Shown here: positions 6,454 to 34,468 of the stretch, in pieces
How positions within the stretch are numbered: position 1 is the stretch's first letter
Layout: every line of letters starts with the position of its first letter
Origin: Clostridia bacterium
GTDB lineage: Bacteria; Bacillota_A; Clostridia; Christensenellales; Aristaeellaceae
Direction: 5' to 3'
Length of the DNA: 34,468 nucleotides
Assembly: GCA_017517815.1 (NCBI GenBank)
Contig: JAFWYA010000100.1
Coordinates: forward strand, 1-34,468
Program-made: the position numbers and the translations under genes
The notes under the pieces: generated by a model
Database searches by the model: none
What the model was told of the DNA's origin: nothing
The model's input: only the letters and a program-made list of their open reading frames with translations

Positions 6454-7076
6454 TGAAAACCATCCGTCATTTATTCTGGGACTTTGACGGCACACTGTAC
6501 CAGTCCTACCCCAAAATGCTGAAATCTTCGATGCAGGCGCTCAGTGATATGAATCTGCATTTTTCTCAGGAGGAAGTGCTGAAACTCATCAAGATCAATG
6601 TGAGCTACGTCCTTCGTGTATGTGCTCAGCGCAGTGGTGCGGATGCAGATCAGCTGATTGCCCGTTTCTATGTTCACCACCATCAGGAAAAGGATTTTCC
6701 ACCCTTCGAGGGGATGGAAGATTGCCTGAGAACCCTGCACGCAGCCGGAGTGAAGCATTATCTGTACACGCACCGCGACATGAGCGCCGTGCGCCAGCTT
6801 CAGCAGGACGGTCTGTGGGAGCTGTTCAGCGATGCCGTCACCAAGGAGGATCCTTTTCCGCGTAAGCCCGAGCCTGACGCGCTGCTGGCGCTGATGGCAC
6901 GCAATGGTCTTTCCCCGAAAGAATGCGCCATGGTAGGCGACCGCGATGTGGATATTGAAGCTGGAAGAAACGCAGGCATGAGGGGTATTCTGTTTGATCC
7001 GGAAGGGTATTACCCAGGCTGCTCGTGCGATCTTCAAATTGATTCTCTTGCTCAGCTACCCGAAAAGCTGCTGTAA
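6453..7076 (+). CDS. HAD-superfamily phosphatase (phosphoglycolate phosphatase-like)
   Basis: This 207-aa cytoplasmic HAD hydrolase has all four motifs: DFDGTLYQS (nucleophile Asp10, Asp12), YTHRD (motif II Thr), RKPEPDALL (motif III Lys) and VGDRDVDIEAGRNAGM (motif IV). The cap lies between about 18 and 85 (helical, C1 type). The family covers phosphoglycolate, pyrophosphate and sugar phosphatases; the substrate cannot be read from sequence. The ATG overlaps the upstream TGA by one base. A bidirectional terminator follows. Confidence 0.85.
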   Translation: MKTIRHLFWDFDGTLYQSYPKMLKSSMQALSDMNLHFSQEEVLKLIKINVSYVLRVCAQRSGADADQLIARFYVHHHQEKDFPPFEGMEDCLRTLHAAGVKHYLYTHRDMSAVRQLQQDGLWELFSDAVTKEDPFPRKPEPDALLALMARNGLSPKECAMVGDRDVDIEAGRNAGMRGILFDPEGYYPGCSCDLQIDSLAQLPEKLL

Positions 7077-20218: not shown

Positions 20219-20234
20219 ATCCGGTTCCTCCATA

Positions 20235-20264
20235 GAAAAAAGCGAGAGCACACAGCTCTCGCTT
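20235..20264 (-). terminator. Terminator between the dimethylargininase-like gene and the dehydratase
   Basis: On the minus strand, a perfect 10-bp stem (20255-20264 with 20240-20249), 5-nt loop and a run of six U partly in the stem. It ends only a few bases before the dehydratase ribosome binding site. Confidence 0.85.
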
Positions 20265-20273
20265 ACTGCTTTT

Positions 20274-21044
20274 TTAGAAGCGCAGGCTCAGGCAGCTCAG
20301 ACCGCCGTCGATCTTGCGGAATTCGGAAGTATCCACCAGCAACACCGGATAGCCCAGGCTTTCAACAGCCGCCTTCACAGCGGGGAAATTCGCAGGAACG
20401 ATGACTGTGCCGTTGACCCAGATGCAGTTAGCCGCATAGGCTTCCTCTTCCGGGATGATGGTTTTATTGTACTGGGCAAAGCAGGGCTTGTCAATAAATT
20501 CGCCGGAAACAAGCATGTTGTTGTTTTCCAGATAATTGACGCCGGTCTTGAGGTGCAGCACCTTTTCCAGCGAAACAGCCTCGCACTTGAAGCCATAGTT
20601 TTCCAAGATGGCCTTGAACTGTGCAATGCCCTCTTCATTGGTACGGGCGGAAGCGCCTACATAGAAGGTGTCGCCCACCATCATCACGTCGCCGCCTTCC
20701 AGCGTGCCGGGATTCTGGATGAAGTGGATATTCTCCTTGGCAAAGAACTTTTCAAGCACAGGCACGATGGCAGCGGTCTCGCCGTTGCGGGTGGCAGCGC
20801 CGGGATTGGTGACGATGGCGCACTTGCGGGTGAGCACAGCCACATCCTCCACAAAGCAGGAGTCGGGATAGTCGTTGTCGGCAGGCAGTACAGTCACTTC
20901 TACGCCGCACTTCTTAAGCGCTTCAATATAGGCGGCATGCTGCTCGAGGGCCTTTTCATAAATGGGCTTGCCCAATTCGGGGGCGGAGGTGATGCCGTCG
21001 CACACAGAGGGACAGGGCGTTTTGACGATTACATTCTTAAACAT
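20274..21044 (-). CDS. Dimethylarginine dimethylaminohydrolase-like amidinohydrolase
   Basis: The 256-aa protein has the guanidine-modifying (pentein) fold of DDAH. It hydrolyses N-methylated arginine to citrulline plus methylamine, or a related guanidino compound. Catalytic features are PDSCFVEDVAV (substrate carboxylates, about 60-70), EGGDV (116-120), His164 in LHLKTGVNYL and the nucleophile Cys251 in DGGLSCLSLRF, five residues from the end. The length matches DDAH and is much shorter than arginine deiminase. It is the last gene of an importer operon (binding protein, permease, ATPase), 20 nt after the ATPase stop, so its substrate is probably imported by that system. Confidence 0.85.
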   Translation of the reverse strand: MFKNVIVKTPCPSVCDGITSAPELGKPIYEKALEQHAAYIEALKKCGVEVTVLPADNDYPDSCFVEDVAVLTRKCAIVTNPGAATRNGETAAIVPVLEKFFAKENIHFIQNPGTLEGGDVMMVGDTFYVGASARTNEEGIAQFKAILENYGFKCEAVSLEKVLHLKTGVNYLENNNMLVSGEFIDKPCFAQYNKTIIPEEEAYAANCIWVNGTVIVPANFPAVKAAVESLGYPVLLVDTSEFRKIDGGLSCLSLRF

Positions 21045-21064
21045 ATCTATCTTCCTCGCAATTC

Positions 21065-21787
21065 TTAAAGTACCTTGGACAGGAATTCCTTCAGGCGCGG
21101 ATGCTGGGGATTACCGAAGAACTCGGCAGGCGTATTCTGCTCCTTGATTTCGCCCTCATCCATAAACAGGATGCGCGTGCCCACCTCGCGGGCAAAGCTC
21201 ATTTCATGGGTAACGATCACCATGGTCATGCCACTGTCCGCCAGCTGACGGATCAGCTCCAGCACCTCGCCGACCATTTCAGGATCAAGCGCGGAGGTGG
21301 GTTCATCAAACAGCATGACCTTCGGTTCCATGGCCAGTGCGCGCACGATGGCCACGCGCTGCTTTTGACCGCCCGAGAGCATCGCCGGATAGGTGTTGGC
21401 CTTATCTGCCAGGCCGATGCGCTCCAGCAGCGCCATCGCCTTCTTGTTTGCCTCTTCCTTGGTCTGCAGCTTATGATAAACAGGCGCAAGGGTGATGTTT
21501 TCCAGAATGGTCTTGTGCGGGAACAGGTTGAAATGCTGGAACACCATGCCCATGCGGCAGCGCATTTTATCCAGATTGGTATCCGCAGCCATCAGGTCGG
21601 TGCCTTCAAAAATAACGGTGCCTTCGGTAGGTTCTTCCAGCAGGTTGAGGCAGCGCAGAAGCGTACTCTTGCCCGAACCAGATGCGCCGATGAGCACCAC
21701 GCGCTCGCCTTCATGAATGGTTTCATTGATGCCGCGCAGCACTTCCAGCTTGCCGAAATTCTTGTGCAGATTCTTAATGTCGATCAC
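21065..21787 (-). CDS. Polar amino-acid ABC transporter ATP-binding protein
   Basis: This 240-aa ATPase is the motor subunit of a GlnQ/ArtP-type importer. Walker A is GASGSGKS (34-41), the signature LSGGQKQR begins at 137, Walker B is [12 protein letters not shown] (157-168), and the switch His is in [13 protein letters not shown]. Length and sequence are typical of the polar amino-acid subfamily. Its start overlaps the permease stop by 14 nt (21774-21787), and the amidinohydrolase gene follows after 20 nt, making a tight operon. Confidence 0.93.
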
Positions 21788-22505
21788 TCTGAGCCAGCCT
21801 CCTTTCCAGACGTTTTACAGCAGCGGACAACCCCGCCACCAGCAAATAATACACCACAGCCACCGACACCAGCGGGAAATAGGGCGACAGCGTACGGCTG
21901 CGCACCAGATCGCTGGCACGGGTAAGGTCGACCACGGAGATCAGACCGACGATGGAGGTTTCTTTCAGAACGGCGATGCCTTCGTTGCAAAGGGCAGGCA
22001 GGATGTTCTTGATGGCCTGCGGAAGAATGATCAGCCGCATGGCAGCAATCTGGCTGAGGCCTACGGAACGGCCTGCTTCCATCTGACCGATGTCAACGGA
22101 GTTGATGCCGCCGCGGATAACTTCGCTTACGTAAGCGCCGGAGTTGACGCCGAATGCCACGCAGCACACCACGATCTTGTTGGGGAAGCCGGCCATGATA
22201 ATAAATGCCATGATCGTCAGCTGAATGGCCAGAGGCGTGCCGCGCATGATGGACACATAGGCAGCCAGCACTTTGTCCAGTGCAAGGATCACATATCTGC
22301 CAATGGTCTTTTTCTTCTTTTTCTTTTCGCTTTCCGCCAGATAATGCACCACGGAAACCACGACACCGATGGCAATGCCGATGAGGGCCGCTACAACGGT
22401 GATCAGCAGGGTGTTTTTGAAACCATTCCAAAAAACAATCCAGCGGTTGTCTCTGATGAATGTTCTGTTGAACTCCATCACAAGGTTTTGCCAAAACTGC
22501 TCCAT
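21774..22505 (-). CDS. Polar amino-acid ABC transporter permease
   Basis: The 243-aa HisM/GlnP-type membrane subunit has about five membrane segments, with a very basic cytoplasmic loop [14 protein letters not shown] at 59-72. The EAA motif that contacts the ATPase is near the usual place: [34 protein letters not shown] is also typical of the family. Only one permease gene is present, so the transporter probably works as a homodimer. The ATG at 22503-22505 has AAAGGAG upstream; a stable hairpin lies between it and the binding-protein gene. Confidence 0.92.
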
Positions 22506-22528
22506 TATTTGCTCCTTTGTTTAACAGC

Positions 22529-22566
22529 CGCGCGCGGCAAAGGATGGATCCCCCTTTGCCGCGTGC
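22529..22566 (-). promoter_or_regulatory. Stable intercistronic hairpin without a U tract
   Basis: On the minus strand a 15-bp stem with a single A-C mismatch (22529-22543 with 22552-22566 approximately) lies between the binding-protein and permease genes. Lacking U residues, it is more likely an RNA-stabilising or partial-attenuation element that raises binding-protein levels than a terminator. Confidence 0.6.
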
Positions 22567-22588
22567 GTTATTCAATTGCTATAGATCA

Positions 22589-23407
22589 TCAGTTGAGGGC
22601 GGAAGCCAGCTCGGTGTGCTTGACCATCCACTCGTCAAACAGGCCTTCTTCGATCGCGGGGGCGATGATTTCGTTGACCTTGGCGACCAGGGCGTCCTCG
22701 CCCTTCTTCATGGCGATGCCCAGCTCTTCAATGGTAGCGGAACCATCCGCATAGGTCAGGGCGAAGCACTTCAGACCGCCGTTGACGGCAACCAGGTTCT
22801 CAGCCAAAGCGGTGTCGCATACGATGGCGCCCAGTTCGCCGTTCTTCAGGGCCAGAGCTGCGTCGGTGAGGAACTTGTACTGCTTGGCCTCGGCACCGGT
22901 GCCGGCCAGCACGCCCATCATGCACTCGTCGCTGACAAGGAAGTCGCCGGTGGTGCCCAGATGCACGCCAATGCCCATGCCGGCCAGATCTTCGATGGTC
23001 TTGACAGTCTCATTGTCCTCTGGAACGATGATGTACTGCTGCGCCACGGTATAGGGAATGCTGAATGCGAGGGTTTCCTTGCGCTCCTCGGTGATGGTCA
23101 TGGCGGACAGGGACATATCAGCCTCGTCCTGCATCAGGTAGGTGGAGATAGAGTCGAAAGCCACGTTGATAATTTCAAGCTCAACACCCAGCTTCTCGGC
23201 GATGTACTGGGCCATTTCAATATCGGAACCGGTCACCTCGCCGTTGGCGCCGATATATTCAAAGGGGGCCCATGCGGCGTCGGTCGCAACGACCAGCTTG
23301 CCGGCGTCGAGAATTTCCTTCAGCTTGCCGGTGGCTTCCTCAGCACAGGCAAAAGCGGACATCATGCACATCATCAGGGCCAGAACGATTGCGAAAACCT
23401 TCTTCAT
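22589..23407 (-). CDS. Amino-acid ABC transporter substrate-binding protein
   Basis: The 272-aa extracellular receptor belongs to the SBP family 3 (polar amino acids). It has a signal peptide MKKVFAIVLALMMCMM followed by SAFACA, with likely cleavage after ACA; a classical lipobox is not clear, so membrane anchoring is uncertain. The mature part begins LKEILDAGKLVVATDAAWAPFEY and contains GSDIEMAQYIAEKLGV and FSIPYT, the usual lobe I signatures. The start is ATG 23405-23407, with AGGAGG 9 nt upstream; the longer in-frame ORF from 23458 runs back into the promoter. It is the first and probably most expressed gene of the importer operon. Confidence 0.92.
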   Translation of the reverse strand: MKKVFAIVLALMMCMMSAFACAEEATGKLKEILDAGKLVVATDAAWAPFEYIGANGEVTGSDIEMAQYIAEKLGVELEIINVAFDSISTYLMQDEADMSLSAMTITEERKETLAFSIPYTVAQQYIIVPEDNETVKTIEDLAGMGIGVHLGTTGDFLVSDECMMGVLAGTGAEAKQYKFLTDAALALKNGELGAIVCDTALAENLVAVNGGLKCFALTYADGSATIEELGIAMKKGEDALVAKVNEIIAPAIEEGLFDEWMVKHTELASALN

Positions 23408-23446
23408 AACGGGTAACCTCCTCAAATCTGTCGTTTGAATAAATAT

Positions 23447-23475
23447 ACTATACACCATGTATAATTATTCGTCAA
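23447..23475 (-). promoter_or_regulatory. Promoter of the importer/amidinohydrolase operon with ARG-box-like operator
   Basis: On the minus strand TTGACG (23470-23475) and TATAGT (23447-23452) are 17 nt apart. The spacer contains CGAATAATTATACAT (23457-23471), close to the ArgR/AhrC ARG box (TGAATAATTATTCA-like). A perfect dyad TATACA-tgg-TGTATA (23449-23463) overlaps the -10. Both suggest repressor control, plausibly by arginine. Confidence 0.75.
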
Positions 23476-23773: not shown

Positions 23774-23811
23774 TGTCAACATTCCTGAAAATATGCTGTT
23801 TTTCGTTGACA
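23774..23811 (+). promoter_or_regulatory. Spaced inverted repeat at the nagB promoter
   Basis: TGTCAAC (23774-23780) and GTTGACA (23805-23811) form a perfect 7-bp inverted repeat 24 nt apart; the right arm includes the -35 box. It could be an operator pair, though a -35 resemblance by chance is possible. Confidence 0.35.
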
Positions 23812-23834
23812 CCTGCTGTGCACGGTGCTATACT
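23806..23834 (+). promoter_or_regulatory. Sigma-A promoter of nagB
   Basis: TTGACA (23806-23811) and TATACT (23829-23834), 17-nt spacer. Confidence 0.88.
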
Positions 23835-23912: not shown

Positions 23913-24638
23913 ATGCAGATCCATGTTTTCGAAAATGCTGCCCAGGTCGGACAGGCCGCCGCTACCTTGATCGCCGCTCAGGTCATCTCCAAGCCCGATT
24001 CCGTTCTGGGTCTGGCCACCGGTTCCACCCCCATCCCCACCTATCAGGAACTGGCTCGTCTGAACAAGGCTGGCGTGGTTGATTTTGCCAAGGTTCGTTC
24101 CTTCAATCTGGACGAGTACTGCAACCTGCCCGAGGATCATGAGCAGAGCTACCACAGCTTCATGAAGGAAAACCTGTTCAACCATATCAACATCGACATC
24201 AACAGCACCCGCGTGCCGGACGGCAACGCTGCCGACCCCGTGGCCGAGGGCGTAAACTATGACGCTGCCATCGTCGCTGCCGGCGGTATCGACGTGCAGA
24301 TCCTGGGCATCGGCCGCAACGGTCACATCGGCTTCAACGAGCCCGGTGAATCCTTCATCTACGGCTGCCATGTGGTCAACCTTACCCAGAGCACCATCGA
24401 AGCCAACCGCCGTTTCTTCGAAAGCGAAGCCGACGTTCCGCGTCAGGCTATCAGTCTGGGCGTTGGCAGCATCATGAACGCCCGCAAGATCCTGCTGCTG
24501 GCCACCGGCGCCGACAAGGCTGACGCCATCTATGCCAGTGTTTACGGCGACATCAATCCCCAATGCCAGGCCAGCATCCTGCGCAGCCATCCCGACGTGA
24601 TCTTCCTGCTGGACAAGGCTGCTGCCAGCAAGCTGTAA
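23913..24638 (+). CDS. nagB: Glucosamine-6-phosphate deaminase
   Basis: The 241-aa cytoplasmic enzyme converts glucosamine-6-phosphate to fructose-6-phosphate and ammonia, the last committed step of amino-sugar catabolism. Signatures are LGLATGSTP (phosphate loop, 32-40), FNLDEYCNLP with the catalytic Asp67, and GIGRNGHIGFNEP with the ring-opening His138. The RNGH form is the one common in Gram-positive NagB, where E. coli has NDGH. The length matches the short Gram-positive type. The ATG at 23913 has AGGAGGGG upstream; the in-frame ORF reaching back to 23748 crosses the promoter and is rejected. It is monocistronic (promoter and terminator present). nagA is not in the window. Confidence 0.96.
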   Translation: MQIHVFENAAQVGQAAATLIAAQVISKPDSVLGLATGSTPIPTYQELARLNKAGVVDFAKVRSFNLDEYCNLPEDHEQSYHSFMKENLFNHINIDINSTRVPDGNAADPVAEGVNYDAAIVAAGGIDVQILGIGRNGHIGFNEPGESFIYGCHVVNLTQSTIEANRRFFESEADVPRQAISLGVGSIMNARKILLLATGADKADAIYASVYGDINPQCQASILRSHPDVIFLLDKAAASKL

Positions 24639-24650
24639 TTCAATCCCTGC

Positions 24651-24680
24651 GTCCTGCCCTTGCGGCAGGACTTTCTTTTT
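24651..24680 (+). terminator. Terminator of nagB
   Basis: A perfect 8-bp stem GTCCTGCC/GGCAGGAC (24651-24658 with 24664-24671), 5-nt loop, followed by TTTCTTTTT. Confidence 0.88.
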
Positions 24681-24704
24681 GCCTCAGAACAAATTCGACG
24701 CTCG

Positions 24705-24717
24705 GCGATTTTATCGC
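24705..24717 (+). promoter_or_regulatory. Inverted repeat, candidate operator of the isomerase/ROK/RpiR operon
   Basis: GCGAT-TTT-ATCGC is a perfect 13-bp dyad 9 nt upstream of the -35 box. It could bind the RpiR-type regulator encoded by the third gene of the operon; this is inferred from position only. Confidence 0.35.
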
Positions 24718-24726
24718 GAACTATTC

Positions 24727-24755
24727 TTGACTATCAGGGCGTAAAATGGTAAGAT
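24727..24755 (+). promoter_or_regulatory. Promoter of the isomerase/ROK/RpiR operon
   Basis: TTGACT (24727-24732) and TAAGAT (24750-24755), 17-nt spacer with a TGG extended -10. Confidence 0.7.
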
Positions 24756-24821: not shown

Positions 24822-26249
24822 ATGATTTCCACTCTGCGCAAACCGAAAATGGGTCTTCTGCTTCTCGCTCCCGAACGTTTTGTCCCCCTGGGCGTCGGCA
24901 CTGCCCGCGGCTCCTATCTGGAGCGCAAGCAGGCTGAAGCTGCCTGGATGAAGGCCGATTGTGAAAAGATGGCTGACGTCAGCTTCCCCGGCATCGTTTT
25001 CAACACGGAAGACGCCAAGCGTGCGGTGGACATGTTCACCCATGACAAGGTCGACTACGTACTGGCCATTTACCTGAGCTGGGCTGAAGACTACGCCTGG
25101 ATTCGTTTCCTGCGCGACATGCCCCCGGTTCCCGTCCTGTTTGCTCACCGCATGCGTGACGAGATCAACCTCAGCGATACGCATGACGACGACGAGTTCA
25201 CCGAGTACCTGTGCTGCGGCGGTCTGGTCGGCGCTCAGGAAGCCAGCGGCGACAACGTTCAGTACAACCGTGACATGTTCGAGACCTATCTGGGCACCTG
25301 GAGCCAGATCATGGAACGCGCCGCCATCTTTGGCAACGCTGCCCGTGCCCGCACCATCCTGCGCGACTCCAAGGTAGGTCTGCTGGCCTGCTACAACGAG
25401 GCCATGTGGTCCACCTATGTGCATCCCTACGATGTGTTCCGCAAGGTTGGCCCTGAGCTGCACTTCCTGTCCATCGCCGAGCTGTGCGACGAAATCGACC
25501 TCATCCCGCGTGAAGAGGCCGAGGCCATGATGAACGACATCGCTTCCCGCTACGAAGTCAAGCCCGACGTGGACCCTGAGAAGTTCCTCGCCAGCGTCCA
25601 CGCCACTATGGCCATGGAACGTATGGCCAAGAAGCACAATATCGACCTGCTGGTGCTCAACGACATCGATACCATGCTGTTTAAGAAGGTCGGCCTGCGC
25701 CCCGGCTTCTACCCCACCCCTGAGTGCGGCGATCTGGTGATCGTGCCCGAAGGCGACATCGGCGGCGGCATCGCCACCTACGTGCTGCGCCTGCTGTCCG
25801 GCAGCGTGGTCAACTTCATCGAGCCTTTCCACATTGACCTGCCCAACGAGAATTTCGCTGCCGGTCATGCGGGTCCCAACGACTACACCGACGAGGGCAA
25901 GACCATCGTCAGCCGCGACGTGCGCTTCGCCAAGAGCCAGTGGAAGCATGCCGGCGCCCCCTTTGCCTGGCACGTGTTCCCCGAAGGCCGCAAGACGATG
26001 CTTCACTGCTCTCAGCACAACGGCCAGTTCCTGATGGCCGCCACCCTGCTTGACTGCCTGCCCTGCGAGCCCTTCCTGGCCACCTACAGCCACGGCCTGT
26101 TCCGTCCTGTGGGCCAGACCTCTCCCGAACTGTTCAGCAAGCTCCTCAAGATCGGCGTCACGCAGCACTACGGCCTGTGCCCCGGCGACCAGCTGGCCGC
26201 TCTGAAGGACCTGGCCATGATGCTGGGCTTCGACTATCACGAGGTCTGA
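24822..26249 (+). CDS. L-fucose/L-arabinose isomerase-family protein
   Basis: The 475-aa cytoplasmic protein resembles the fucose/arabinose isomerase superfamily, metal-dependent aldose-ketose isomerases. The N-terminal half has two Rossmann-like lobes (KMGLLLLAPERF; a VDYVLAIYLSWAEDYAW segment; VPVLFAHRMRD), and the C-terminal part holds candidate metal ligands in PEGDIGGG (Glu310, Asp312) and later His residues around EPFHID, GHAGPND and LHCSQHNGQF. I cannot tell which sugar it uses, and it may not be an isomerase. It is followed after 1 nt by a ROK kinase and then an RpiR regulator, so it probably acts on the same sugar as the kinase. A purine-rich AAAGAGGAG lies upstream of the ATG. Confidence 0.72.
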   Translation: MISTLRKPKMGLLLLAPERFVPLGVGTARGSYLERKQAEAAWMKADCEKMADVSFPGIVFNTEDAKRAVDMFTHDKVDYVLAIYLSWAEDYAWIRFLRDMPPVPVLFAHRMRDEINLSDTHDDDEFTEYLCCGGLVGAQEASGDNVQYNRDMFETYLGTWSQIMERAAIFGNAARARTILRDSKVGLLACYNEAMWSTYVHPYDVFRKVGPELHFLSIAELCDEIDLIPREEAEAMMNDIASRYEVKPDVDPEKFLASVHATMAMERMAKKHNIDLLVLNDIDTMLFKKVGLRPGFYPTPECGDLVIVPEGDIGGGIATYVLRLLSGSVVNFIEPFHIDLPNENFAAGHAGPNDYTDEGKTIVSRDVRFAKSQWKHAGAPFAWHVFPEGRKTMLHCSQHNGQFLMAATLLDCLPCEPFLATYSHGLFRPVGQTSPELFSKLLKIGVTQHYGLCPGDQLAALKDLAMMLGFDYHEV

Positions 26250-26250
26250 T

Positions 26251-27108
26251 ATGAGTGAAGTGATTCTTGCGCTGGACTGCGGCGGCTCCAGCATCAAAGC
26301 TGCTGTCATCCGCGATAAAGACATCCTTGAAACCCGGCTGTTCCCCTTTGAGGGGGACGGTCGGGAGGATCTGCTGGGCGCGTTCCGCGCTGCCGCCGAA
26401 TGGGGCGCTTCCTGGAATGCCACCCGCATTGGTGCCGCCTGCCCCGGCCCCTTTGACTTCAATGAAGGCGCCAGCCGTATGGTACACAAATGGCAGGGCA
26501 TCAAGGACGTGCCGCTTGCGCCCGTGCTCAACGAGGCGCTTCCCGGCGTGCCCGTGCGCTTCCTTCACGACTCCACCGCCTACATGCTGGGCGAAGCGTG
26601 GGACGGTGCAGGCGAATCCATGCAGTCTCCCGCAGGCGTAATGCTGGGCACCGGCTTTGGTTATGCTCTCATGCAGGATCGCCTTGTACTGCTGGACGAA
26701 ACGCAGACTCCGCTTGTCCGCCTGTGGAATGCCCCGTTCAAGGGCGGCATTGTTGAAGACTTTGTCAGCACGCGCGCCATCCGCAAACGCTATACCGACG
26801 CTACCGGCAAGGAGGCTGACGTAAAGCAGATCGCTGATCTGGCTCATGCCGGCGACGAAACCGCCATCGAGGTCTTCCGCGAGACCGGCCGGCTGCTTGG
26901 TGAAATTCTCACGCAGTATCTGCCCGAGTGGGCCGACGGCGTGGTTCTTGGCGGACGCATCGCCCTTTCAGGCGATCTGTTCCTGCCCTATGCCAACACC
27001 CCCGTGCCGGTCGTTGCTGCAAAGCATGTGGACGACGCGGCGCTTCGCGGTATCGCTGCCTACTGCATGCGCGAACGCGACCAGCTCGTAAGGGAGGTTC
27101 ATTCATGA
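26251..27108 (+). CDS. ROK-family sugar kinase-like protein
   Basis: The 285-aa protein has the ASKHA/ROK nucleotide-binding start VILALDCGGSSIKAAV (phosphate-1 loop, about 4-19) and AACPGPFDFNEGAS; GVMLGTGFGYALM is the second nucleotide loop. The CxCGxxGCxE zinc motif of typical ROK kinases and repressors is missing; in its place is FKGGIVEDFVSTRAI. There is no N-terminal helix-turn-helix, so it is an enzyme rather than a ROK repressor. A role as MurNAc, GlcNAc or other sugar kinase is possible. It sits 1 nt after the isomerase-like gene and overlaps the regulator start by 4 nt (ATGA). Confidence 0.78.
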   Translation: MSEVILALDCGGSSIKAAVIRDKDILETRLFPFEGDGREDLLGAFRAAAEWGASWNATRIGAACPGPFDFNEGASRMVHKWQGIKDVPLAPVLNEALPGVPVRFLHDSTAYMLGEAWDGAGESMQSPAGVMLGTGFGYALMQDRLVLLDETQTPLVRLWNAPFKGGIVEDFVSTRAIRKRYTDATGKEADVKQIADLAHAGDETAIEVFRETGRLLGEILTQYLPEWADGVVLGGRIALSGDLFLPYANTPVPVVAAKHVDDAALRGIAAYCMRERDQLVREVHS

Positions 27109-27956
27109 GTACCTTCACCCGGCTGCGTGAAGGCACGTTTTCCGCCACTGAACGGCGCATTGCGGATTACATCCTCAAAAACGCCGAGCACATGTCGGAG
27201 ACCACCATATCCACCGTAGCTGAAGAATGCCATACCAGCAAATCCATGGTGGTACAGCTGTGCAAAACAGCAGGCTTTACAGGCTACAAGGATCTGTGCA
27301 GCCAGCTTCTGGTAGAGCAGGCCCTTAGCGGACAACGTGGCGAGATGGAAATGTACGAGGATATCCACCCCGGCCTTTCCATCAAGGAAATCGCACAGAT
27401 CACCATCCGCGGAGAGATCCGCTCTTTGGAGGACACGACCGAGCTCATCAATTACGATGCGCTTGAAAAGGCCGTTTCCCTTTTGAAGAACGCAGACTGT
27501 ATCTACCTTTTTGGCGTAGGCAACAGCGCCATCATTGCGCTGGATATGCACTACAAGCTTAGCCGCATCGGACTGCACAGCCGCTTTGCGCAGGACGTAC
27601 ATGTTCAGTTGATGGAAACTGCCGCCATGTCTGACAAGAGCGTGGCGTTGGTTTTCAGTTTCAACGGCCGCACTCGCGACATGATCGAGGCGTGCGAGCT
27701 GTGCCGTGAACGCGGCGCGCGTATTGTATCCATCACAAGGCATGGCCGCAACCCCATCAGCGATCTGAGCGACGTCGCCCTGCATGTAGCCAGCAACGAG
27801 TCTCTGCAGCGCGCTGCAGCCATGTCCTCGCGCTTGAGCACCATGAGCATGGTGGATGTGTTGTTCACCTGCCTGTGCAGCCAGATCGCCGACAGCATTG
27901 CACCGCTCATTCGCCGCAGCGCTGCCATCGCCAAAAAAAGAAGAAAGTCCTCCTGA
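27105..27956 (+). CDS. RpiR-family transcriptional regulator (HTH + SIS)
   Basis: The 283-aa regulator has the RpiR N-terminal helix-turn-helix (about 1-77; ATERRIADYILKNAEHMSE, TISTVAEECHTSKSMVVQLCKTAGFTGY as shorter blocks) and a C-terminal sugar-phosphate-binding SIS domain (about 105-245; YLFGVGNSAIIALD, VFSFNGRTRDMIE). RpiR proteins such as MurR sense sugar phosphates including MurNAc-6-phosphate, so this is a candidate regulator of both its own operon and the downstream salvage genes. The start ATG 27105 has GGAGG 7 nt upstream and overlaps the kinase stop; a longer in-frame ORF begins inside the kinase gene and is rejected. The C-terminus is very basic (KKRRKSS). Confidence 0.88.
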   Translation: MSTFTRLREGTFSATERRIADYILKNAEHMSETTISTVAEECHTSKSMVVQLCKTAGFTGYKDLCSQLLVEQALSGQRGEMEMYEDIHPGLSIKEIAQITIRGEIRSLEDTTELINYDALEKAVSLLKNADCIYLFGVGNSAIIALDMHYKLSRIGLHSRFAQDVHVQLMETAAMSDKSVALVFSFNGRTRDMIEACELCRERGARIVSITRHGRNPISDLSDVALHVASNESLQRAAAMSSRLSTMSMVDVLFTCLCSQIADSIAPLIRRSAAIAKKRRKSS

Positions 27957-27963
27957 CTTTTTC

Positions 27964-27996
27964 ACCGCCTTCATCCTTTGGAAGGCGGTTTTCTTT
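27964..27996 (+). terminator. Terminator of the isomerase/ROK/RpiR operon
   Basis: A perfect 9-bp stem (27964-27972 with 27981-27989), 8-nt loop and TTTTCTTT. Confidence 0.85.
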
Positions 27997-28078: not shown

Positions 28079-28186
28079 CTGGCCAACGATCATTTTGATC
28101 GTAATAACACTGCACAAATTGCGGCGGAGCTTTATCCGCGCGTAGCTGCTTTTGCTGAAATGAGCCGCAAGGATCACCTGTACGAA
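28079..28186 (+). pseudogene. Degenerate fragment resembling the NamZ (DUF1343) C-terminus
   Basis: Read in frame, this 108-nt stretch encodes residues that align with the last about 38 residues of the intact NamZ downstream: NNTAQIAAELYPRVAAFAE against KTTAQLVEEHKPGVAAFTE, then RKDHLYE against KKYHLYK. The frame has no start codon with a ribosome binding site, no upstream NamZ sequence, and no stop at the homologous place. It looks like the tail of a lost paralogue or a partial duplication left in the leader of the intact gene; the promoter of that gene overlaps its 3' end. Confidence 0.65.
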
Positions 28187-28207
28187 CAAACAAAACTATG
28201 CTATAAT
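28179..28207 (+). promoter_or_regulatory. Extended -10 promoter of namZ
   Basis: TGCTATAAT (28199-28207) is a strong extended -10. The -35 (28179-28184, TGTACG) is poor and falls at the end of the NamZ-like fragment. Confidence 0.6.
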
Positions 28208-28262: not shown

Positions 28263-29429
28263 ATGAAAGCTCATATCCTCAGCGGCATCGACCGTATCGA
28301 TACCGTTGCCCATCTGCTGGAAGGCAAGCGCGTTGGCCTCATGACCAACCCTACCGGTATCGACCACAATCTCAAAAGCACCATTGACATCATCGCCGAG
28401 CGCTTCAACCTGACCGCTTTGTTTGCTGTTGAGCACGGCATCCGCGGCGATATTCAGGCCGGCGCCAAGGTTGACAATACCGTCGATCCTGCCACTGGCG
28501 TGACCGTTTACAGCGCTTACGGCAAGAACGCCCATTTCAACGATGAAATGCTGGATGCCTTCGACGTGCTGGTGTTTGATATTCAGGACGTCGGCGCCCG
28601 CTTTTATACCTACATTTACTCCATGGGCTATGCCATGGAGGCCTGCAACCGTTCCAGCAAGAGCATGATCGTGCTGGATCGCATCAACCCCATCGGCGGT
28701 CTGCGTACTTGCGGCACCATTCAGGATCCTGCGTTCAAGTCCTTCGTAGGCGACTACGAACTGCCCAGCCGCTATGCCCTCACCTGCGGCGAGGTTGCCC
28801 TGTATGTGAAGGATTACCTCAAGCTGGATCTGGACCTGACCGTGGTTCCCGTCGAAGGCTGGTCCCGCGACATGTATCTGGACGATACCGACCTGCCCTG
28901 GGTGGCTCCCTCCCCCAACCTGGCCACGCTGGACGCTGCCTTTACCTACATCGGCACCTGTATTTTTGAAGGCACCAACATTTCCGAAGGCCGCGGCACC
29001 ACTCTGCCCTTCCAGGTGGTTGGCGCTCCCTTCCTGGACAGCGCCAAGCTGGAAGCTGCCATGGCTGCTTACAACCTGCCCGGCGTGCATTTCCGCCGCA
29101 CGTCCTTCTGCCCCACCTTCAGCAAGCATGCGGGTGAAATGTGCCACGGCGTGCAGATGCATGTGACTGATCGTGAAAACTGCGACCTGTTCGAAGCCGG
29201 CATGATCCTGCTGGACGAGATCCGCAAGCAGGCTGGCGACAAGTTTGAAATTCTCTGCCATGTGCTGGAGATGGAAGGCGAAACCAAGCGCTTCTATCAC
29301 ATGGACCGTCTGCTTGGCAGCGACGACTATCGTCTCGGCAAGAAGACCACCGCTCAGCTTGTTGAAGAGCACAAGCCCGGCGTGGCCGCTTTTACCGAAG
29401 CCAGCAAAAAATACCATCTGTACAAATAA
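28263..29429 (+). CDS. namZ: DUF1343 protein, NamZ-type exo-beta-N-acetylmuramidase
   Basis: The 388-aa protein belongs to DUF1343 (PF07075), whose characterised member, B. subtilis NamZ, removes MurNAc from the non-reducing end of peptidoglycan chains. Family motifs: GKRVGLMTNPTGID (23-36), the VEHGIRGDIQAG loop with Glu57, VFDIQDVGARFYTYI, and FEGTNISEGRGTTLPF. The length is that of the mature enzyme, but there is no signal peptide (MKAHILSGIDRIDTV), so it acts in the cytoplasm, unlike the secreted B. subtilis protein. GAGG lies a short distance before the ATG. The next gene, a tandem GNAT, follows 12 nt after the stop; together they form one operon. Confidence 0.88.
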   Translation: MKAHILSGIDRIDTVAHLLEGKRVGLMTNPTGIDHNLKSTIDIIAERFNLTALFAVEHGIRGDIQAGAKVDNTVDPATGVTVYSAYGKNAHFNDEMLDAFDVLVFDIQDVGARFYTYIYSMGYAMEACNRSSKSMIVLDRINPIGGLRTCGTIQDPAFKSFVGDYELPSRYALTCGEVALYVKDYLKLDLDLTVVPVEGWSRDMYLDDTDLPWVAPSPNLATLDAAFTYIGTCIFEGTNISEGRGTTLPFQVVGAPFLDSAKLEAAMAAYNLPGVHFRRTSFCPTFSKHAGEMCHGVQMHVTDRENCDLFEAGMILLDEIRKQAGDKFEILCHVLEMEGETKRFYHMDRLLGSDDYRLGKKTTAQLVEEHKPGVAAFTEASKKYHLYK

Positions 29430-29441
29430 GGAGGCAGCCGC

Positions 29442-30521
29442 ATGAACTGGCAGATTGCTCCCCTTTGCCCTGCAGACGCCAAAGAGGCACTGGCGCTGCT
29501 CAAAACGCTTTCTGACAACCATGAAGTGCTCTACAAGCCGCTGGAAGAGTCAGACTTCCTCAGCCGCTTTTTCGGCGAAAACCGCTGGGGATTTACCGCA
29601 CGCACGGATGACGGAAAGCTGATCGGTTGGATCCACGGCGCAGCCAAAACCAGCTTCCTGGAAGGCGAGACCCACGAAAACACTCCGCTGTACCTGACCA
29701 TGCTGCTGGTGGATGCCGCCTGGCGCAGGCAGGGCGTTGGATCTGCCCTGCTGGAGGCCCTGAAAAAAGCCGGCGTGGAAGCCGGTAAAAAGGCCATGGC
29801 TGTTTCCGGCGACAACCCGGTGCACCTCACCTGGCTCATTCCCGGTGCAGGCGGACATGACCACAACAATGCTCCCGGTGTGGACGAGGACGGCATGGGC
29901 TTTGCTTTCTTCCAGAAGCACGGCTTTAAGGACGACTTCCATGAGATCTCCCTGTACATGAACCTCAAGGATTACAAGTGGGATCCCAAGCTGGATGAAA
30001 TGATTGCCAAACTCAACGCCGAAGGCATTCATGTCGGCCGGTGGCAGATGGGCATGGGCGAGGAATGCGACGGCATGTGCGACCGCGTGGGCAGCGAATA
30101 CTGGCGCAACTCCATCAAGCGTGAGCTGAAGGCATGGCATTCAGGCCAGCCCAACGACGATCCCGAGTTCTGGCCTGATGGTGTAAAACCTGCCGGCCCG
30201 CGTCCTATTCTGGCTGCTGTGAAGGATGAGCACATCATCGGCTTTACAGGCCCGGTCGACCTGCAGAAGAGCGGACGCGGCTGGTTCACCGGCATCTGCG
30301 CTGATCCCGAATGGGGCGGACGCGGCATTGGCACTGTGCTCTTTAACATGCTGATGCAGGAATTTGTGGACGAAGGCGCAGCGTTCAGCTCACTGTTCAC
30401 CGGCCTTCATAACCACGCGCAGAAAATCTACATGCGTGCCGGCATGCATGTGACTGCAAGATTTGCGGTCATGTCCTGCGTGCTGGACGGCGGCGAAGCG
30501 TACGAGAAGCGCTACTTCTGA
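29442..30521 (+). CDS. Tandem-GNAT acetyltransferase, candidate glucosaminide N-acetyltransferase (GlmA-like)
   Basis: The 359-aa protein has two GNAT folds in a row (about 1-175 and 215-359). Each has an acetyl-CoA pyrophosphate loop: [11 protein letters not shown] (94-104) and [11 protein letters not shown] (291-301). The C. acetobutylicum enzyme GlmA, known to N-acetylate glucosamine and non-acetylated peptidoglycan ends, is also a two-GNAT protein, and this gene sits in a muropeptide salvage cluster. I therefore infer the same job: re-acetylating GlcN so that NagZ can act. A muramic acid or unrelated amine substrate cannot be excluded. The ribosome binding site AAGGAGG lies upstream of the ATG; a terminator follows the stop. 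Confidence 0.7.
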
Positions 30522-30526
30522 CCATC

Positions 30527-30570
30527 AAACGGCTGCAGCTGATGAAAAGGCTGCAGCCGTTTTTGGCTTT
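30527..30570 (+). terminator. Terminator of the namZ-GNAT operon
   Basis: A perfect 12-bp stem (30527-30538 with 30551-30562), 12-nt loop, followed by TTTTT and more T-rich sequence that leads directly into the murQ promoter. Confidence 0.8.
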
Positions 30571-30572
30571 TC

Positions 30573-30601
30573 TTGACATTGTACCATCCAGCCATTATAC
30601 T
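30573..30601 (+). promoter_or_regulatory. Sigma-A promoter of murQ-anmK-nagZ
   Basis: TTGACA (30573-30578) and TATACT (30596-30601), 17-nt spacer. It sits right behind the upstream terminator, separating this operon from namZ. Confidence 0.88.
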
Positions 30602-30649
30602 GAATATAATTGTGTGCATTTCCTCAAAAAAAGAAAAGGAGCGAGCGCC

Positions 30650-31549
30650 ATGCCGAACCTTTCCCATCTGCAGACTGAACAGCGCAACCCTGCATCCATG
30701 CATATCGATCGCATGGAAACACTGGATATGCTTCGCGTCATCAATCAGGAAGATCATCACGTTGCCGAAGCAGTTGAAAAAGAACTGCCCAACATAGCAA
30801 AGGCCGTCGAGCTGATTTACGCCCAGCTGAAAAACGGCGGGCGGCTTATCTATTGCGGCGCAGGCACATCCGGCAGACTGGGTGTGCTTGATGCCTCCGA
30901 ATGTCCGCCTACCTACGGCGTGGATCCCGGCATGGTGATCGGACTGATCGCAGGCGGAGAAAAAGCTGTGACTTCTGCAGCAGAAGGCGCGGAGGATCGT
31001 GCCGACTGGGGTGCTGACGACCTGAAGCACATCGGTTTTTGCGCAAAGGATATTCTGGTAGGCATTGCTGCCAGCGGCCGTACCCCATATGCCATCGGTG
31101 CGATGGATCACGCCCGCTCGCTCGGCGCTCCCGTCATAGCTGTTGTGTGCTGTCAGAACAGCGAAATGTCTCGTCATGCTGACGTGACCATTGCACCCGT
31201 TACAGGCCCCGAGGTCGTGACGGGCTCTTCCCGCATGAAGGCTGGAACAGCACAGAAAATGGTGCTCAACATGCTTTCCACCGCCACCATGATCAAGCTG
31301 GGCAAGGTGTACGGCAACCTGATGGTCGACCTCAAACCCACCAACGAAAAGCTGGTACAGCGCGCCATCCGTATCGTTTCCTCCGCCACAGGCGTCGACG
31401 AGCAGCAGGCTCGCAGCGCGCTTGAAGCCGGCGGCATGCACTGCAAAACCGCCATCGTAATGCTTTTGATGAACCTTACTGCCGACGAGGCCCGCAAGGC
31501 GCTTGATGCGGCGGATGACCGCATTGCCGGTGTGACAAAGGAGGACTGA
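30650..31549 (+). CDS. murQ: N-acetylmuramic acid 6-phosphate etherase
   Basis: The 299-aa cytoplasmic SIS-fold lyase removes D-lactate from MurNAc-6-phosphate, giving GlcNAc-6-phosphate. Signatures are [23 protein letters not shown], with the catalytic Glu84, and a second catalytic Glu115 in [24 protein letters not shown] and the C-terminal [15 protein letters not shown] are also characteristic. The length is standard (about 300). The ATG at 30650 has AAAGGAG 8 nt upstream; an in-frame upstream ORF would begin before the promoter. The kinase anmK follows after 3 nt, so substrate formation and cleavage are encoded together. Confidence 0.97.
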
Positions 31550-31552
31550 CGG

Positions 31553-32737
31553 GTGGAAAAGCTGAAACAGCTATGGACAAAGCCCAGCCGATTGGTGATC
31601 GGTATGATGAGCGGCACCAGTGCTGACGGCGTTGATGCTGCGCTGTGCCGTATTCATGGCAGCGGGCTGGATACCCGTGTGGAGCTCGTTTCCTTTTTGT
31701 ACGTTCCGTTTGAAGACCGCGTGCGTGAGCGCATCCTTGCGCTGGCTGGCGGCAGCGAGGGCGGCTCGCACGAACTGCTGATGCTGAGTGTTCTGCTTGG
31801 TAAGCTTTATACCGATGCCTGTCTGGCACTGTGCAAACAGGCAGGCATCTCTCCTGAAGAAGTCGATCTGGTGGGCACGCACGGCCAGACGCTGTGGCAT
31901 GTGCCTGTCGCAGAAGACTATCTGGGCTATTCCCTTCGCGGTACGCTGCAGATGGGCGAGCCTTCGTTTATCAACGAGGCTCTGGGCTGCCCGGTCATCA
32001 GCGACTTCCGTGTGCGTGACATGGCTGCCGGCGGTCTCGGCGCGCCGCTGGTGCCCTATTCCGAATTTCTGCTTTACCGCAGCAATGACCTGAATGTTGG
32101 ACTGCAGAACATCGGTGGCATCGGCAATCTGACTGTGCTGCCCAAAAGCGGCGAACTGACAGATACCTTTGCCTTTGACACTGGCCCCGGCAACATGGTG
32201 ATGGATGCCATTGTCAGCCGCATGACCGGCGGCGCACAGCGATGGGATGAAGGCGGAAAGCTGGCATCTGCCGGTCAGGTAAACGGAGAACTGCTCGCCT
32301 TCCTGCTGGATGATCCTTATCTGCGCCGCAAAGCGCCCAAAACCACCGGGCGAGAAGTCTATGGTGAAAGCTACGTCAATGCACTCATCGCCAAAGGCGA
32401 ATCCCTTGGCATGAGCATGCTTGACATGCTGACCACCGCCACGCGCTTTACAGCTGAGTGTATCCGCATTGCGGCGGATGAAACCAGTTCTATCCGTCCC
32501 GACAGGCTGATCGTAGGCGGAGGCGGTGCACAAAATGCAACGCTGATGCGCATGATCGCCGATCTTTTGCCCGGCGTACAGGTAATGCGCAACGAAGAGC
32601 TGGGCTTTGACGGCGACGCGAAGGAAGCCGTGGCCTTCGCCATTCTGGCCAACGAATATGTGTTTGGCCGCTGCGGCAACGTGACCAGTGCAACCAATGC
32701 CAGCCATCCTGTTGTGCTTGGCAAGATGAGCCTGTAA
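31553..32737 (+). CDS. anmK: Anhydro-N-acetylmuramic acid kinase
   Basis: The 394-aa cytoplasmic kinase hydrolyses the 1,6-anhydro ring and phosphorylates, converting anhydroMurNAc and ATP to MurNAc-6-phosphate, the MurQ substrate. ASKHA motifs are visible: IGMMSGTSADGVDAAL at the N-terminus, NIGGIGNLTVLP, FDTGPGNMVMDAI and KEAVAFAILANE. The catalytic Asp is expected within VISDFRVRDMAAGG. The start is GTG at 31553 with AGGAGG 8 nt upstream. anmK implies that anhydro-muropeptides reach the cytoplasm, so lytic transglycosylase products or an outside source must be imported; no transporter is in this cluster. Confidence 0.96.
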   Translation: MEKLKQLWTKPSRLVIGMMSGTSADGVDAALCRIHGSGLDTRVELVSFLYVPFEDRVRERILALAGGSEGGSHELLMLSVLLGKLYTDACLALCKQAGISPEEVDLVGTHGQTLWHVPVAEDYLGYSLRGTLQMGEPSFINEALGCPVISDFRVRDMAAGGLGAPLVPYSEFLLYRSNDLNVGLQNIGGIGNLTVLPKSGELTDTFAFDTGPGNMVMDAIVSRMTGGAQRWDEGGKLASAGQVNGELLAFLLDDPYLRRKAPKTTGREVYGESYVNALIAKGESLGMSMLDMLTTATRFTAECIRIAADETSSIRPDRLIVGGGGAQNATLMRMIADLLPGVQVMRNEELGFDGDAKEAVAFAILANEYVFGRCGNVTSATNASHPVVLGKMSL

Positions 32738-32750
32738 GGAGGTTTTTCCC

Positions 32751-34295
32751 ATGAATGAACAGCTGATGCACCTTGTTGGCCAGCGTATGCTGGTGGGTTT
32801 CCCCGGTACCGTCATTCCCGACTCTCTGCGTGAAGTCGTGCGCAAATACAAAGTCGGCAACTTTATTCTCTTCAGTGAAAACGTCGTTGATCGCGCTCAG
32901 GCACGTGACCTGTGCGACCAGCTGCAAAAGCTCTCGCTGGAAGAAACTGGTCTGCCCGCCCTGATCGCAGCTGACCAGGAGGGCGGCATCGTCAACCGCC
33001 TGCCCAAGGACTGCGCCGTTGCGCCTACGGCCCTTGCCGTTGCCGCCACACAGAATCCCGGCAATGCGTATGTTGCCGGCAAGATCACCGGTACAGAACT
33101 GCGCGCGCTGGGTATCAATTTTGATCTTGCACCCGTGCTGGATATCAACTCCAACCCGCAGAATCCCGTCATCGGCGCACGCAGCTACGGCGACACGCCT
33201 GAAAAGGTCTGCGAATACGCTCTGCCCATGATCCACGGCCTGAACGATGCGGGTGTTTTCAGCTGTGCCAAGCATTTCCCCGGCCATGGCGACACGGCGG
33301 TCGACTCTCATCTGGGCCTGCCCCGCGTGGACAAGAGTCTGGAAGAACTGGAACAGTGTGAACTGGTTCCCTTCCGTGCTGCTGCACGTGCTGGTGTAAG
33401 CGCCGTGATGACCACGCACATTCTCTTCCCGCAGCTGGATGATTCCGGCGTGCCCGCCACCATGTCCCGTCCCATTATTACGGGTATTCTGCGTGAAAAG
33501 CTGGGCTTTGAAGGGCTGGTCACCACCGACTGCATGATGATGCAGGCCATTGCCACCTTCTATGGCACCGTCAAGGGCTGCGTGGCCGCCGCCAACGCAG
33601 GTGTCGACATGATGTGCATCTCCCATGATCCCGTGCTTGCGGGCGAAGTATGCGAAGCACTGTACAAGGCCCTGGAAAACGGTGATCTTGACGAAGGCGA
33701 ATTCCGCGCTTCTGTGGGCCGTATCCGCAAATGTAAGGATCAGCTGGCGGAAATGCCCGAACCCGCCTTTGAACTGGCCGGTTGTGAGGCCTTCCACAAC
33801 ACCATCAACGCCATGCGCGCTGCAGGCGTTACCCACATGGGCGCGCCTGTCCCTGCTTTAGGCGACAAGCCTTATTTCACTGGCTGCTATCCCTTCCAGC
33901 CCACACTGGCGTCCAGCCCGGTCAACCGTTCGCTGTGCTTTGCCGACTGGATGTGCAATCAGCTGGGCGGCACCTGCCTGACCACTTCCATTGACCCGGA
34001 CGATGATGAAATTGCAAAGTCCGTCAGTGCTGCTGAGGGCTGCAGCTGCATCGTGCTGGGCACCTACAACGGCCATATCAAGCGCGGACAGATGAAGCTT
34101 CTCAAGGCGCTGGCTGCACTGGGTAAGCCCATGGTAGTGGCTGCGCTGCGCAATCCCTATGACCTGGCCGAATTGCCCGAGGGGGTATGCGGTCTGCAGG
34201 CATACGAATACAATCTCAGCAGTCTGCGCAATGTTGCGAATGTGCTTACGGGCAAGCTGATTCCTACCGGCAAACTGGACCTGAAACTTTCATAA
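32751..34295 (+). CDS. nagZ: Beta-N-acetylhexosaminidase, GH3 (NagZ-like, two-domain)
   Basis: The 514-aa glycoside hydrolase family 3 enzyme cleaves terminal GlcNAc from GlcNAc-MurNAc muropeptides. The N-terminal TIM barrel contains KHFPGHGDTAVDSHLGLP (174-191; the Asp185/His187 acid-base dyad of NagZ) and the nucleophile Asp260 in GLVTTDCMMMQA. A C-terminal alpha/beta domain (about 350-514) follows, as in Gram-positive NagZ such as B. subtilis YbbD. There is no signal peptide, so it is cytoplasmic, whereas YbbD is secreted. AAGGAGG lies before the ATG. It is the third gene of murQ-anmK-nagZ, 13 nt after anmK. The terminator downstream appears broken by an IS insertion. Confidence 0.93.
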   Translation: MNEQLMHLVGQRMLVGFPGTVIPDSLREVVRKYKVGNFILFSENVVDRAQARDLCDQLQKLSLEETGLPALIAADQEGGIVNRLPKDCAVAPTALAVAATQNPGNAYVAGKITGTELRALGINFDLAPVLDINSNPQNPVIGARSYGDTPEKVCEYALPMIHGLNDAGVFSCAKHFPGHGDTAVDSHLGLPRVDKSLEELEQCELVPFRAAARAGVSAVMTTHILFPQLDDSGVPATMSRPIITGILREKLGFEGLVTTDCMMMQAIATFYGTVKGCVAAANAGVDMMCISHDPVLAGEVCEALYKALENGDLDEGEFRASVGRIRKCKDQLAEMPEPAFELAGCEAFHNTINAMRAAGVTHMGAPVPALGDKPYFTGCYPFQPTLASSPVNRSLCFADWMCNQLGGTCLTTSIDPDDDEIAKSVSAAEGCSCIVLGTYNGHIKRGQMKLLKALAALGKPMVVAALRNPYDLAELPEGVCGLQAYEYNLSSLRNVANVLTGKLIPTGKLDLKLS

Positions 34296-34361: not shown

Positions 34362-34468
34362 CTAAGCCACCAGTTCTGTTCGAAACAGGACTGGTGTTTT
34401 TCCGTTCAATTTCCGAACGGGACGTTCATTGTTGAAATAGTAGATGGCTTGCGCAACGATCGCGCGCA
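34362..34468 (-). CDS. IS3-family-type transposase, C-terminal fragment at window edge
   Basis: Only the last 35 codons are in the window, ending in TAG at 34362-34364. The minus-strand frame reads IYYFNNERPVRKLNGKTPV and then LFRTELVA. YFNNERP followed by a KTPVxFR motif is the characteristic end of the integrase-core (OrfB) transposase of IS3-type elements. The gene runs off the right end; whether it is intact cannot be seen. Its last codons contain a 13-bp inverted repeat (34368-34380 with 34384-34396) followed by TTTTT on the plus strand, which may stop transcription entering from nagZ. Confidence 0.75.
   Translation of the reverse strand, partial: RAIVAQAIYYFNNERPVRKLNGKTPVLFRTELVA
34368..34401 (+). 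terminator. Terminator-like hairpin inside the transposase 3' end
   Basis: A 13-bp stem with one G-U pair (34368-34380 with 34384-34396) and CGA loop, followed by TTTTT on the plus strand. It could replace the broken nagZ terminator and block read-through into the IS. Confidence 0.65.

Follow-up and report, generated by a model that had tools for sequence, protein, structure and literature searches.

The locus described here raises the question of where, and by which route, a bacterium takes peptidoglycan glycans apart when its two exo-acting glycosidases carry no signal peptide. According to the available parts of two reports, NagZ and NamZ are extracellular in Gram-positives (PMC13204101), and Bacillus subtilis secretes AmiE and NagZ (PMC5061867). 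In the 34,468-nucleotide stretch of Clostridia bacterium DNA analysed here (the whole stretch is called the window), five genes at 28263-34295 stand in tandem on the + strand and encode NamZ, a tandem GNAT protein, MurQ, AnmK and a NagZ of family GH3. We propose that they probably form a cytoplasmic module for the salvage of peptidoglycan glycan fragments, a variant of the known Gram-positive muropeptide salvage. The features of this locus are the following:

28263 to 29429, + strand: NamZ-family exo-beta-N-acetylmuramidase, no signal peptide (PF07075 and PF20732; PDB 4k05, 9e-78; stop codon upstream)
29442 to 30521, + strand: tandem GNAT with a GlmA/RmNag-type fold, putative glucosamine (GlcN)/glucosaminide N-acetyltransferase
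30527 to 30562, + strand: terminator-like hairpin at the end of the NamZ-GNAT unit (14-pair stem, 8-base loop, T-rich tail)
30573 to 30601, + strand: sigma-70-like promoter of the MurQ-AnmK-NagZ unit (TTGACA-N17-TATACT, 11/12)
30650 to 31549, + strand: MurQ, N-acetylmuramic acid (MurNAc) 6-phosphate etherase (TIGR00274, 419 vs 302 bits; Shine-Dalgarno sequence; PDB 4s12, 4e-94)
31553 to 32737, + strand: AnmK, anhydroMurNAc kinase family, GTG start (PF03702, 322 bits; NF007148, 428 vs 387 bits)
32751 to 34295, + strand: NagZ, GH3 beta-N-acetylglucosaminidase, no signal peptide (NF003740, 209.5 vs 207 bits)
34368 to 34396, + strand: terminator-like hairpin 3' of NagZ (13-pair stem, then TTTTT)

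Domain and curated-model scans recovered all five adjacent genes that the first-pass annotation, made from the sequence alone, had named at these positions. NamZ contains both NamZ domains over its full length (PF07075 at residues 24-223, 1e-78; PF20732 at residues 228-387, 8e-47). MurQ exceeds its curated equivalog cut-off; its most likely start is 30650, not the first ATG at 30542, because the Shine-Dalgarno sequence AAGGAGCG lies there and the model match begins at residue 43 of the longer open reading frame (ORF). NagZ clears the curated beta-N-acetylhexosaminidase cut-off narrowly, and its Asp-His dyad and Asp nucleophile are kept (D185, H187 and D260, aligned with D190, H192 and D268 of the Rhizomucor miehei enzyme RmNag).

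The absence of signal peptides from NamZ and NagZ, also claimed in the first-pass annotation, could have been undone by an overlooked upstream start. No such start is possible in either frame: no ATG, GTG or TTG lies between the NamZ start and the in-frame stop 34 codons upstream, or between the NagZ start and its in-frame upstream stop 8 codons away. A crude hydrophobicity index (not SignalP) was negative for both window proteins and called signal-like N-termini in 0/38 NamZ and 0/23 NagZ proteins of relatives, whereas control binding proteins were called signal-like in 14/16 and 7/7 cases (21/23 in total). By this measure, the window enzymes lack the mark of the secreted hydrolases of B. subtilis.

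For the pathway as a whole we infer the substrates, the cargo of the importer, the order of steps, and the existence of an importer and a MurNAc kinase in the window organism. Short glycans would probably be imported by a CUT1-type ATP-binding cassette (ABC) importer and trimmed from the non-reducing end. NamZ, judged by its domains, would release MurNAc there and expose N-acetylglucosamine (GlcNAc) or GlcN; the GlmA-type tandem GNAT may restore the acetyl group on terminal or free GlcN and so make it acceptable to the enzymes that follow; and NagZ would take off GlcNAc. AnmK would convert anhydroMurNAc to MurNAc-6-phosphate, a MurK-type kinase encoded elsewhere would phosphorylate free MurNAc, and MurQ would remove the lactyl group from MurNAc-6-phosphate to give GlcNAc-6-phosphate, from which NagA (encoded elsewhere) and NagB (23913-24638, a gene missing from the first-pass list) would lead to fructose 6-phosphate. 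Removal of peptides would need an amidase, and an RpiR-family regulator would act via a candidate operator in front of its own operon.

As had been noted from the sequence, the cluster holds no transporter, amidase or nagA: tblastn with the relatives' sugar-ABC permeases, binding proteins, BadF kinases and AmiE-like, PIG-L and ManA-like proteins gave no match in the window at E 1e-4, and the window ORFs put through the Pfam scan included no recognisable nagA. The first-pass annotation had left import open and suggested that related genomes be searched for the same gene order and a linked transporter. A GNAT profile found at least 78 loci, on contigs labelled Clostridia, Clostridiales, Christensenella(ceae), Candidatus Avichristensenella, Bacillota or plain bacterium; a codon-score gene caller, which mis-set some starts, was applied to these loci, some on short contigs, and called the GNAT in 73. 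NamZ lies directly upstream of GNAT in 27 of the 73 and within 6.5 kb in 36; the same distance holds NagZ in 20 loci and CUT1-type permeases in 27, and in 48 loci it holds one or more of NamZ, NagZ, MurQ, MurK-like and AmiE-like proteins. The search provided a candidate for the importer, the carbohydrate ABC importer linked to NamZ-GNAT in close relatives. The order GNAT-MurQ was found in 0/73 loci with called neighbours and may be peculiar to the window lineage or reflect an assembly join.

The eight near genomes (G001 to G008) provide candidates for further steps. One contig of G004 encodes, in order, fucI, a weakly ManA-like gene (a homologue scores 22.5 vs 116 bits against TIGR00218), rok, rpiR, namZ, gnat, a second small GNAT (211 aa), two permeases and a binding protein, and another contig carries murQ-anmK-nagZ-badF. 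In G006, rpiR-namZ-gnat-permeases-binding protein and a convergent murQ-nagZ-badF share one contig. MurQ matches were found in five of the eight genomes and AnmK matches in two. A BadF kinase adjoins murQ or nagZ in G004 to G007, not in G003, that is, in 4/5 near genomes with MurQ. The nagA gene, absent from the window cluster as claimed, is nevertheless above the cut-off in 8/8 near genomes, where it lies away from the window-type namZ-gnat genes (the model matches 14/14 control genomes, seven of them above the cut-off); in G001 and G002, about 4 kb separate one nagA copy from a second, more distant GNAT. We take AmiE to have the beta-lactamase fold PF00144; a protein with this fold is encoded no more than 6 kb from GNAT in nine loci, has no homologue in the window, and may be AmiE-like.

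Co-occurrence was analysed in 300 genomes drawn from the family of G004 (E<=1e-30 for GNAT, E<=1e-40 for NamZ and for MurQ), among which GNAT has 82 carriers and NamZ and MurQ 109 each. GNAT occurs together with NamZ in 77/82 GNAT carriers (Fisher p 6e-39) and with MurQ in 68/82 (p 8e-25), both values ignoring shared ancestry. Neither NamZ nor MurQ was found in one GNAT genome; NamZ occurs without GNAT in 32 genomes.

Several observations weigh against the proposed module. The window has no importer, amidase or MurK-type kinase at the tblastn threshold given above. In 25/73 GNAT loci, NamZ, NagZ, MurQ, MurK-like and AmiE-like proteins are all absent within 6.5 kb, and 5/82 GNAT genomes lack NamZ, although these assemblies may be incomplete; the Fisher values, moreover, take no account of common descent. 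G001, G002 and G008 lack a MurQ match at E 1e-20, G001 and G002 holding only a divergent MurQ-like protein of 589 aa, and six near genomes lack an AnmK match. The 589-aa protein (L133:5215-6984, L134:6485-8254) is encoded beside NagZ and has about 250 extra residues between its SIS-type and C-terminal parts (layout from L133).

The purpose of such a module could also be recycling of the cell's own wall turnover instead of the use of other bacteria's peptidoglycan, an explanation that we consider possible but somewhat improbable. Gram-positive models recycle MurNAc via MurQ in stationary phase, according to the available part of the report (PMC5061867), and nagB in the window and nagA in near genomes fit such recycling. 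AnmK, which the window and two of the eight nearest genomes encode, points the other way. It acts on the anhydro products of lytic transglycosylases, which are typical of Gram-negative walls and phages. An RpiR regulator and a sugar ABC importer also resemble an inducible uptake system.

A narrower form of the salvage proposal is that NamZ and the tandem GNAT are a dedicated cytosolic couple for N-deacetylated, lysozyme-resistant glycans, which would be imported intact by the CUT1 system and stripped stepwise together with NagZ under one RpiR operator. We offer it tentatively and rate it as rather doubtful; no description of CUT1 ABC import of peptidoglycan glycans was found in the titles and abstracts of the literature searched.

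The substrate of the GNAT protein is central to this couple. A fold search with the predicted structure gave two solved glucosamine N-acetyltransferases as best matches, and the GNAT is about 17% identical to one of them, the Clostridium acetobutylicum enzyme (5kf1-5kga), in the structural alignment. Tyrosine Y330 in the C-domain is invariant and corresponds to Y842 of RmNag, its N-domain counterpart being F157, and the alignments show a loop inserted after the fifth strand of the N-domain. Sequence searches against PDB left the GNAT type unsettled, and the fold search was clearer: the single sequence retrieved mostly generic GNATs (5kga/5kf1 at E 0.14, 4zm6 at 0.48), the profile retrieved YpeA first (1e-8), then the C. 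acetobutylicum enzyme (7e-8, N-domain) and 4zm6 (0.001), and the C-domain alone recovered neither of the latter two. Against a GlcN enzyme, D287 of the C. acetobutylicum enzyme and D834 of RmNag would fall at T320 and L322, neither of them acidic, by offset counted back from the tyrosine. Thus the GlmA-like label of the first-pass annotation holds at the level of fold, whereas the specificity for GlcN, and with it the repair role, is put forward conditionally because the acidic active-site residue is absent at the expected offsets. On the predicted structure, the protein would transfer acetyl groups to GlcN and glucosaminides.

Acetylation of another amine, in muramic acid, a peptide or some other small molecule, seems unlikely, given that both best folds are those of GlcN enzymes and that 77 of the 82 GNAT genomes have NamZ. 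The distribution of PIG-L-like genes argues in the same direction. Such a gene follows GNAT in 44/73 loci, but in the clade of the window (L001, L002, L020, L003, L004, L070 and L038; support 0.94), which has NamZ in 7/7 loci, PIG-L stands beside GNAT in none of the six loci in which the contig extends beyond GNAT (that of L038 stops within the gene), and G001 and G002 pair PIG-L with the second GNAT copy (L133, L047). Canonical PIG-L enzymes carry the motif AHxDD. The PIG-L-like protein (L069:1456-2148, the same gene in 47 other loci) has AHTGD in 47/48 sequences, so that Gly seems to stand in place of the usual catalytic Asp.

A scan for terminators and promoters divides the stretch into four units, nagB, fucI-rok-rpiR, namZ-gnat and murQ-anmK-nagZ. 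The division of the five salvage genes into two operons, as first annotated, is borne out by the hairpin and the promoter between GNAT and MurQ. Promoter-like sites precede nagB (23806), fucI (24727) and murQ (30573), and a further terminator-like hairpin lies 3' of nagB at 24651; the namZ promoter was missed by the scan, and by eye an extended -10 (TGCTATAAT) is seen at 28199-28207. The scanned region gave 18 terminator-like and nine promoter-like sites in total, against shuffle means of 10.5 and 5.0; because shuffles also yield many, single sites are not proof, and it is their position, not their number, that argues for these boundaries. The units upstream of namZ comprise the following features:

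about 23913 to 24638, + strand: NagB, glucosamine-6-phosphate deaminase (TIGR00502, 266 vs 237 bits, the model beginning at residue 56 of the ORF that starts at 23748; own promoter 23806-23834)
24687 to 24731, + strand: two-box candidate operator (GAACAAATTC ... GAACTATTC) abutting the -35 box of fucI-rok-rpiR
24822 to 26249, + strand: L-fucose/L-arabinose-isomerase-like (FucI-like) protein, first gene of the rpiR unit (79-80% identical in L129/L130)
26251 to 27108, + strand: ROK-family kinase without the CxCGxxGCxE zinc motif (PF00480, 4e-19; motif search)
27105 to 27956, + strand: RpiR/MurR-family SIS-domain regulator (HTH_6, 2.6e-15; SIS, 2.3e-22)
27964 to 27989, + strand: terminator-like hairpin 3' of rpiR

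The regulator scores below the MurR equivalog cut-off (NF012026, 110 vs 408 bits) and is therefore classed in the RpiR family, MurR-like in role only. Two RAACWARTY-type boxes, 31-32 bp apart, precede fucI/rpiR in G003, G004, G006 and the window; the second directly precedes the -35 box and has one mismatch in the window. These four sites, taken together with the G004 and G006 murQ promoters, gave the pattern GTCAAN{1,2}ANTNGTTN{23,24}AAYTWGTT. In 300 genomes it has seven matches, all intergenic and confined to G003, G004 and G006, in front of fucI/rpiR (3), the ABC importer (2) and murQ (2), with none for the reversed control. The two importer matches (G003, G004) are independent of the building of the pattern. 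The window has one match (24688-24731), and 100 shuffles of it have none. Among 396 genomes of the order, the pattern again matched G003 and G004, with one match in G617 and one reversed-control match in G593; we take the G617 match as chance because no salvage homologue adjoins it. A weight matrix for the motif (4/8 sites) separated sites poorly from shuffles, and the strict pattern alone was used.

Common control of the salvage genes has counter-evidence of its own. The namZ and murQ promoters of the window and the murQ promoter of G003 lack the motif, the importer of G006 has only a diverged version that the strict pattern does not match, and the pattern is absent from G001, G002, G005, G007 and G008, the nearest relatives included. 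Co-regulation therefore has support in the relatives and extends only in part to the window strain; RpiR would govern the salvage genes of close relatives and, in the window, probably some of them. FucI-like homologues are widespread, for example in Sphaerochaeta, and the regulon may therefore also serve another sugar.

That the RpiR unit (FucI-like, ROK and, in relatives, weakly ManA-like proteins) serves an unrelated neutral sugar, with NamZ-GNAT a mere passenger, is quite improbable. Such a role would agree with the spread of the FucI-like family outside this context, with the glucokinase that is the best match of ROK, and with the 306 bp and terminator-like hairpin that separate rpiR from namZ in the window. 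However, the gap is 3-52 bp in 5/5 relatives with that order, the same motif precedes murQ on the separate contig of G004 and the opposite strand of G006, and loci L007 and L022 keep the FucI, ROK and ManA-like genes with NamZ in other orders. For the FucI-like protein itself, Pfam gave no match, and 2 of the 120 homologues listed are named L-arabinose or L-fucose isomerase. In L007, which also has NamZ, a GH39-like protein (12318-13757) is encoded between the FucI-like and ROK genes; L022 has a gene of equal length in the same position (5325-6764), the domain scan having been made on L007. Between rpiR and namZ of the window, 28100-28186 encodes what is left of a NamZ C-terminus (29 aa, 52% identical to the window NamZ; blastx E 2e-5 against a small NamZ protein set), where the five relatives have only the short gap; this suggests that the window lineage once had another namZ copy, since lost or replaced.

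The ROK kinase had been proposed, with a question mark, for free MurNAc. We rejected it as first choice: a BadF kinase adjoins murQ or nagZ in most near genomes with murQ, as described above, and G004 carries both kinases in these units, which makes ROK a poor candidate. The MurK kinase of C. acetobutylicum presumably belongs to the BadF-type family; the BadF kinase of the relatives matches Pfam BcrAD_BadFG and has a weak NCBIfam resemblance to NagK (80.6 vs 370 bits). The zinc motif CxCGxxGC, which ROK proteins usually carry, is missing in the window kinase and in 5/5 relatives. That the AnmK-family kinase instead phosphorylates a different 1,6-anhydro sugar, for example levoglucosan, is very improbable: levoglucosan kinase outscores bacterial AnmK in PDB (231 vs 188 bits) and 13 other AnmK models listed were not passed, but one NCBIfam AnmK cut-off is cleared, and the gene lies between murQ and nagZ in the window and G004 and beside murQ in G003.

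Every enzyme of the locus belongs to a described family, while the arrangement is new: no description of it was found by title or abstract in the literature searched, which leaves out most subscription journals. We take ybbC of B. subtilis to encode NamZ. The B. subtilis cluster murQ-murR-murP-amiE-nagZ-ybbC, as given in the available part of the report (PMC5061867), likewise links NagZ, MurQ, an RpiR/MurR-type regulator and ybbC; there, however, the hydrolases act outside and the MurP phosphotransferase system (PTS) imports MurNAc, whereas the window proteins lack signal peptides and the cluster lacks a PTS gene. The window adds AnmK and the tandem GNAT, and its relatives an ABC importer.

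The GlmA/NagZ/MurK salvage of C. acetobutylicum was reportedly described by Reith and Mayer in 2011. The window shares with it a tandem GNAT of the same fold, and the relatives a BadF-type kinase beside nagZ/murQ; beyond the reported scheme, the window adds NamZ, AnmK and MurQ in the same stretch, and its GNAT has diverged from GlmA to the low identity given above, with the active-site Asp not conserved by offset. RmNag, a fungal fusion of a GH3 beta-N-acetylglucosaminidase to a tandem GNAT, similarly pairs a hexosaminidase with a tandem GNAT, which in RmNag acetylates GlcN, with the tyrosine in the C-domain only and the N-domain loop after the fifth strand; in the available part of the report (PMC4680927) it is discussed in connection with chitin metabolism, whereas the window has separate genes and a MurNAc pathway. 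Tannerella forsythia combines NamZ enzymes with the MurNAc kinase MurK and MurQ but, unlike the window, it is a Gram-negative MurNAc auxotroph with a dedicated transporter, MurT, and no GNAT is described in the available part of the report (PMC10465942).

If correct, the proposed salvage module would mean that NamZ works intracellularly, not extracellularly, in a group of uncultured gut Clostridia. For peptidoglycan sugars in these bacteria, the analysis names candidates for the ABC importer, the kinase, the regulator and the operator, and whether deacetylated, lysozyme-resistant peptidoglycan can serve gut bacteria as food becomes a testable question.

Another ABC transporter, of the polar amino-acid type (21065-23458, minus strand, SBP_bac_3), was considered as a muropeptide importer and set aside, being unsupported in that role, divergent and of amino-acid type. 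The minus-strand region to which it belongs (18473-23458) encodes this transporter (SBP_bac_3, permease and ATPase), a DDAH/arginine-deiminase-like protein and an IlvD/Edd dehydratase.

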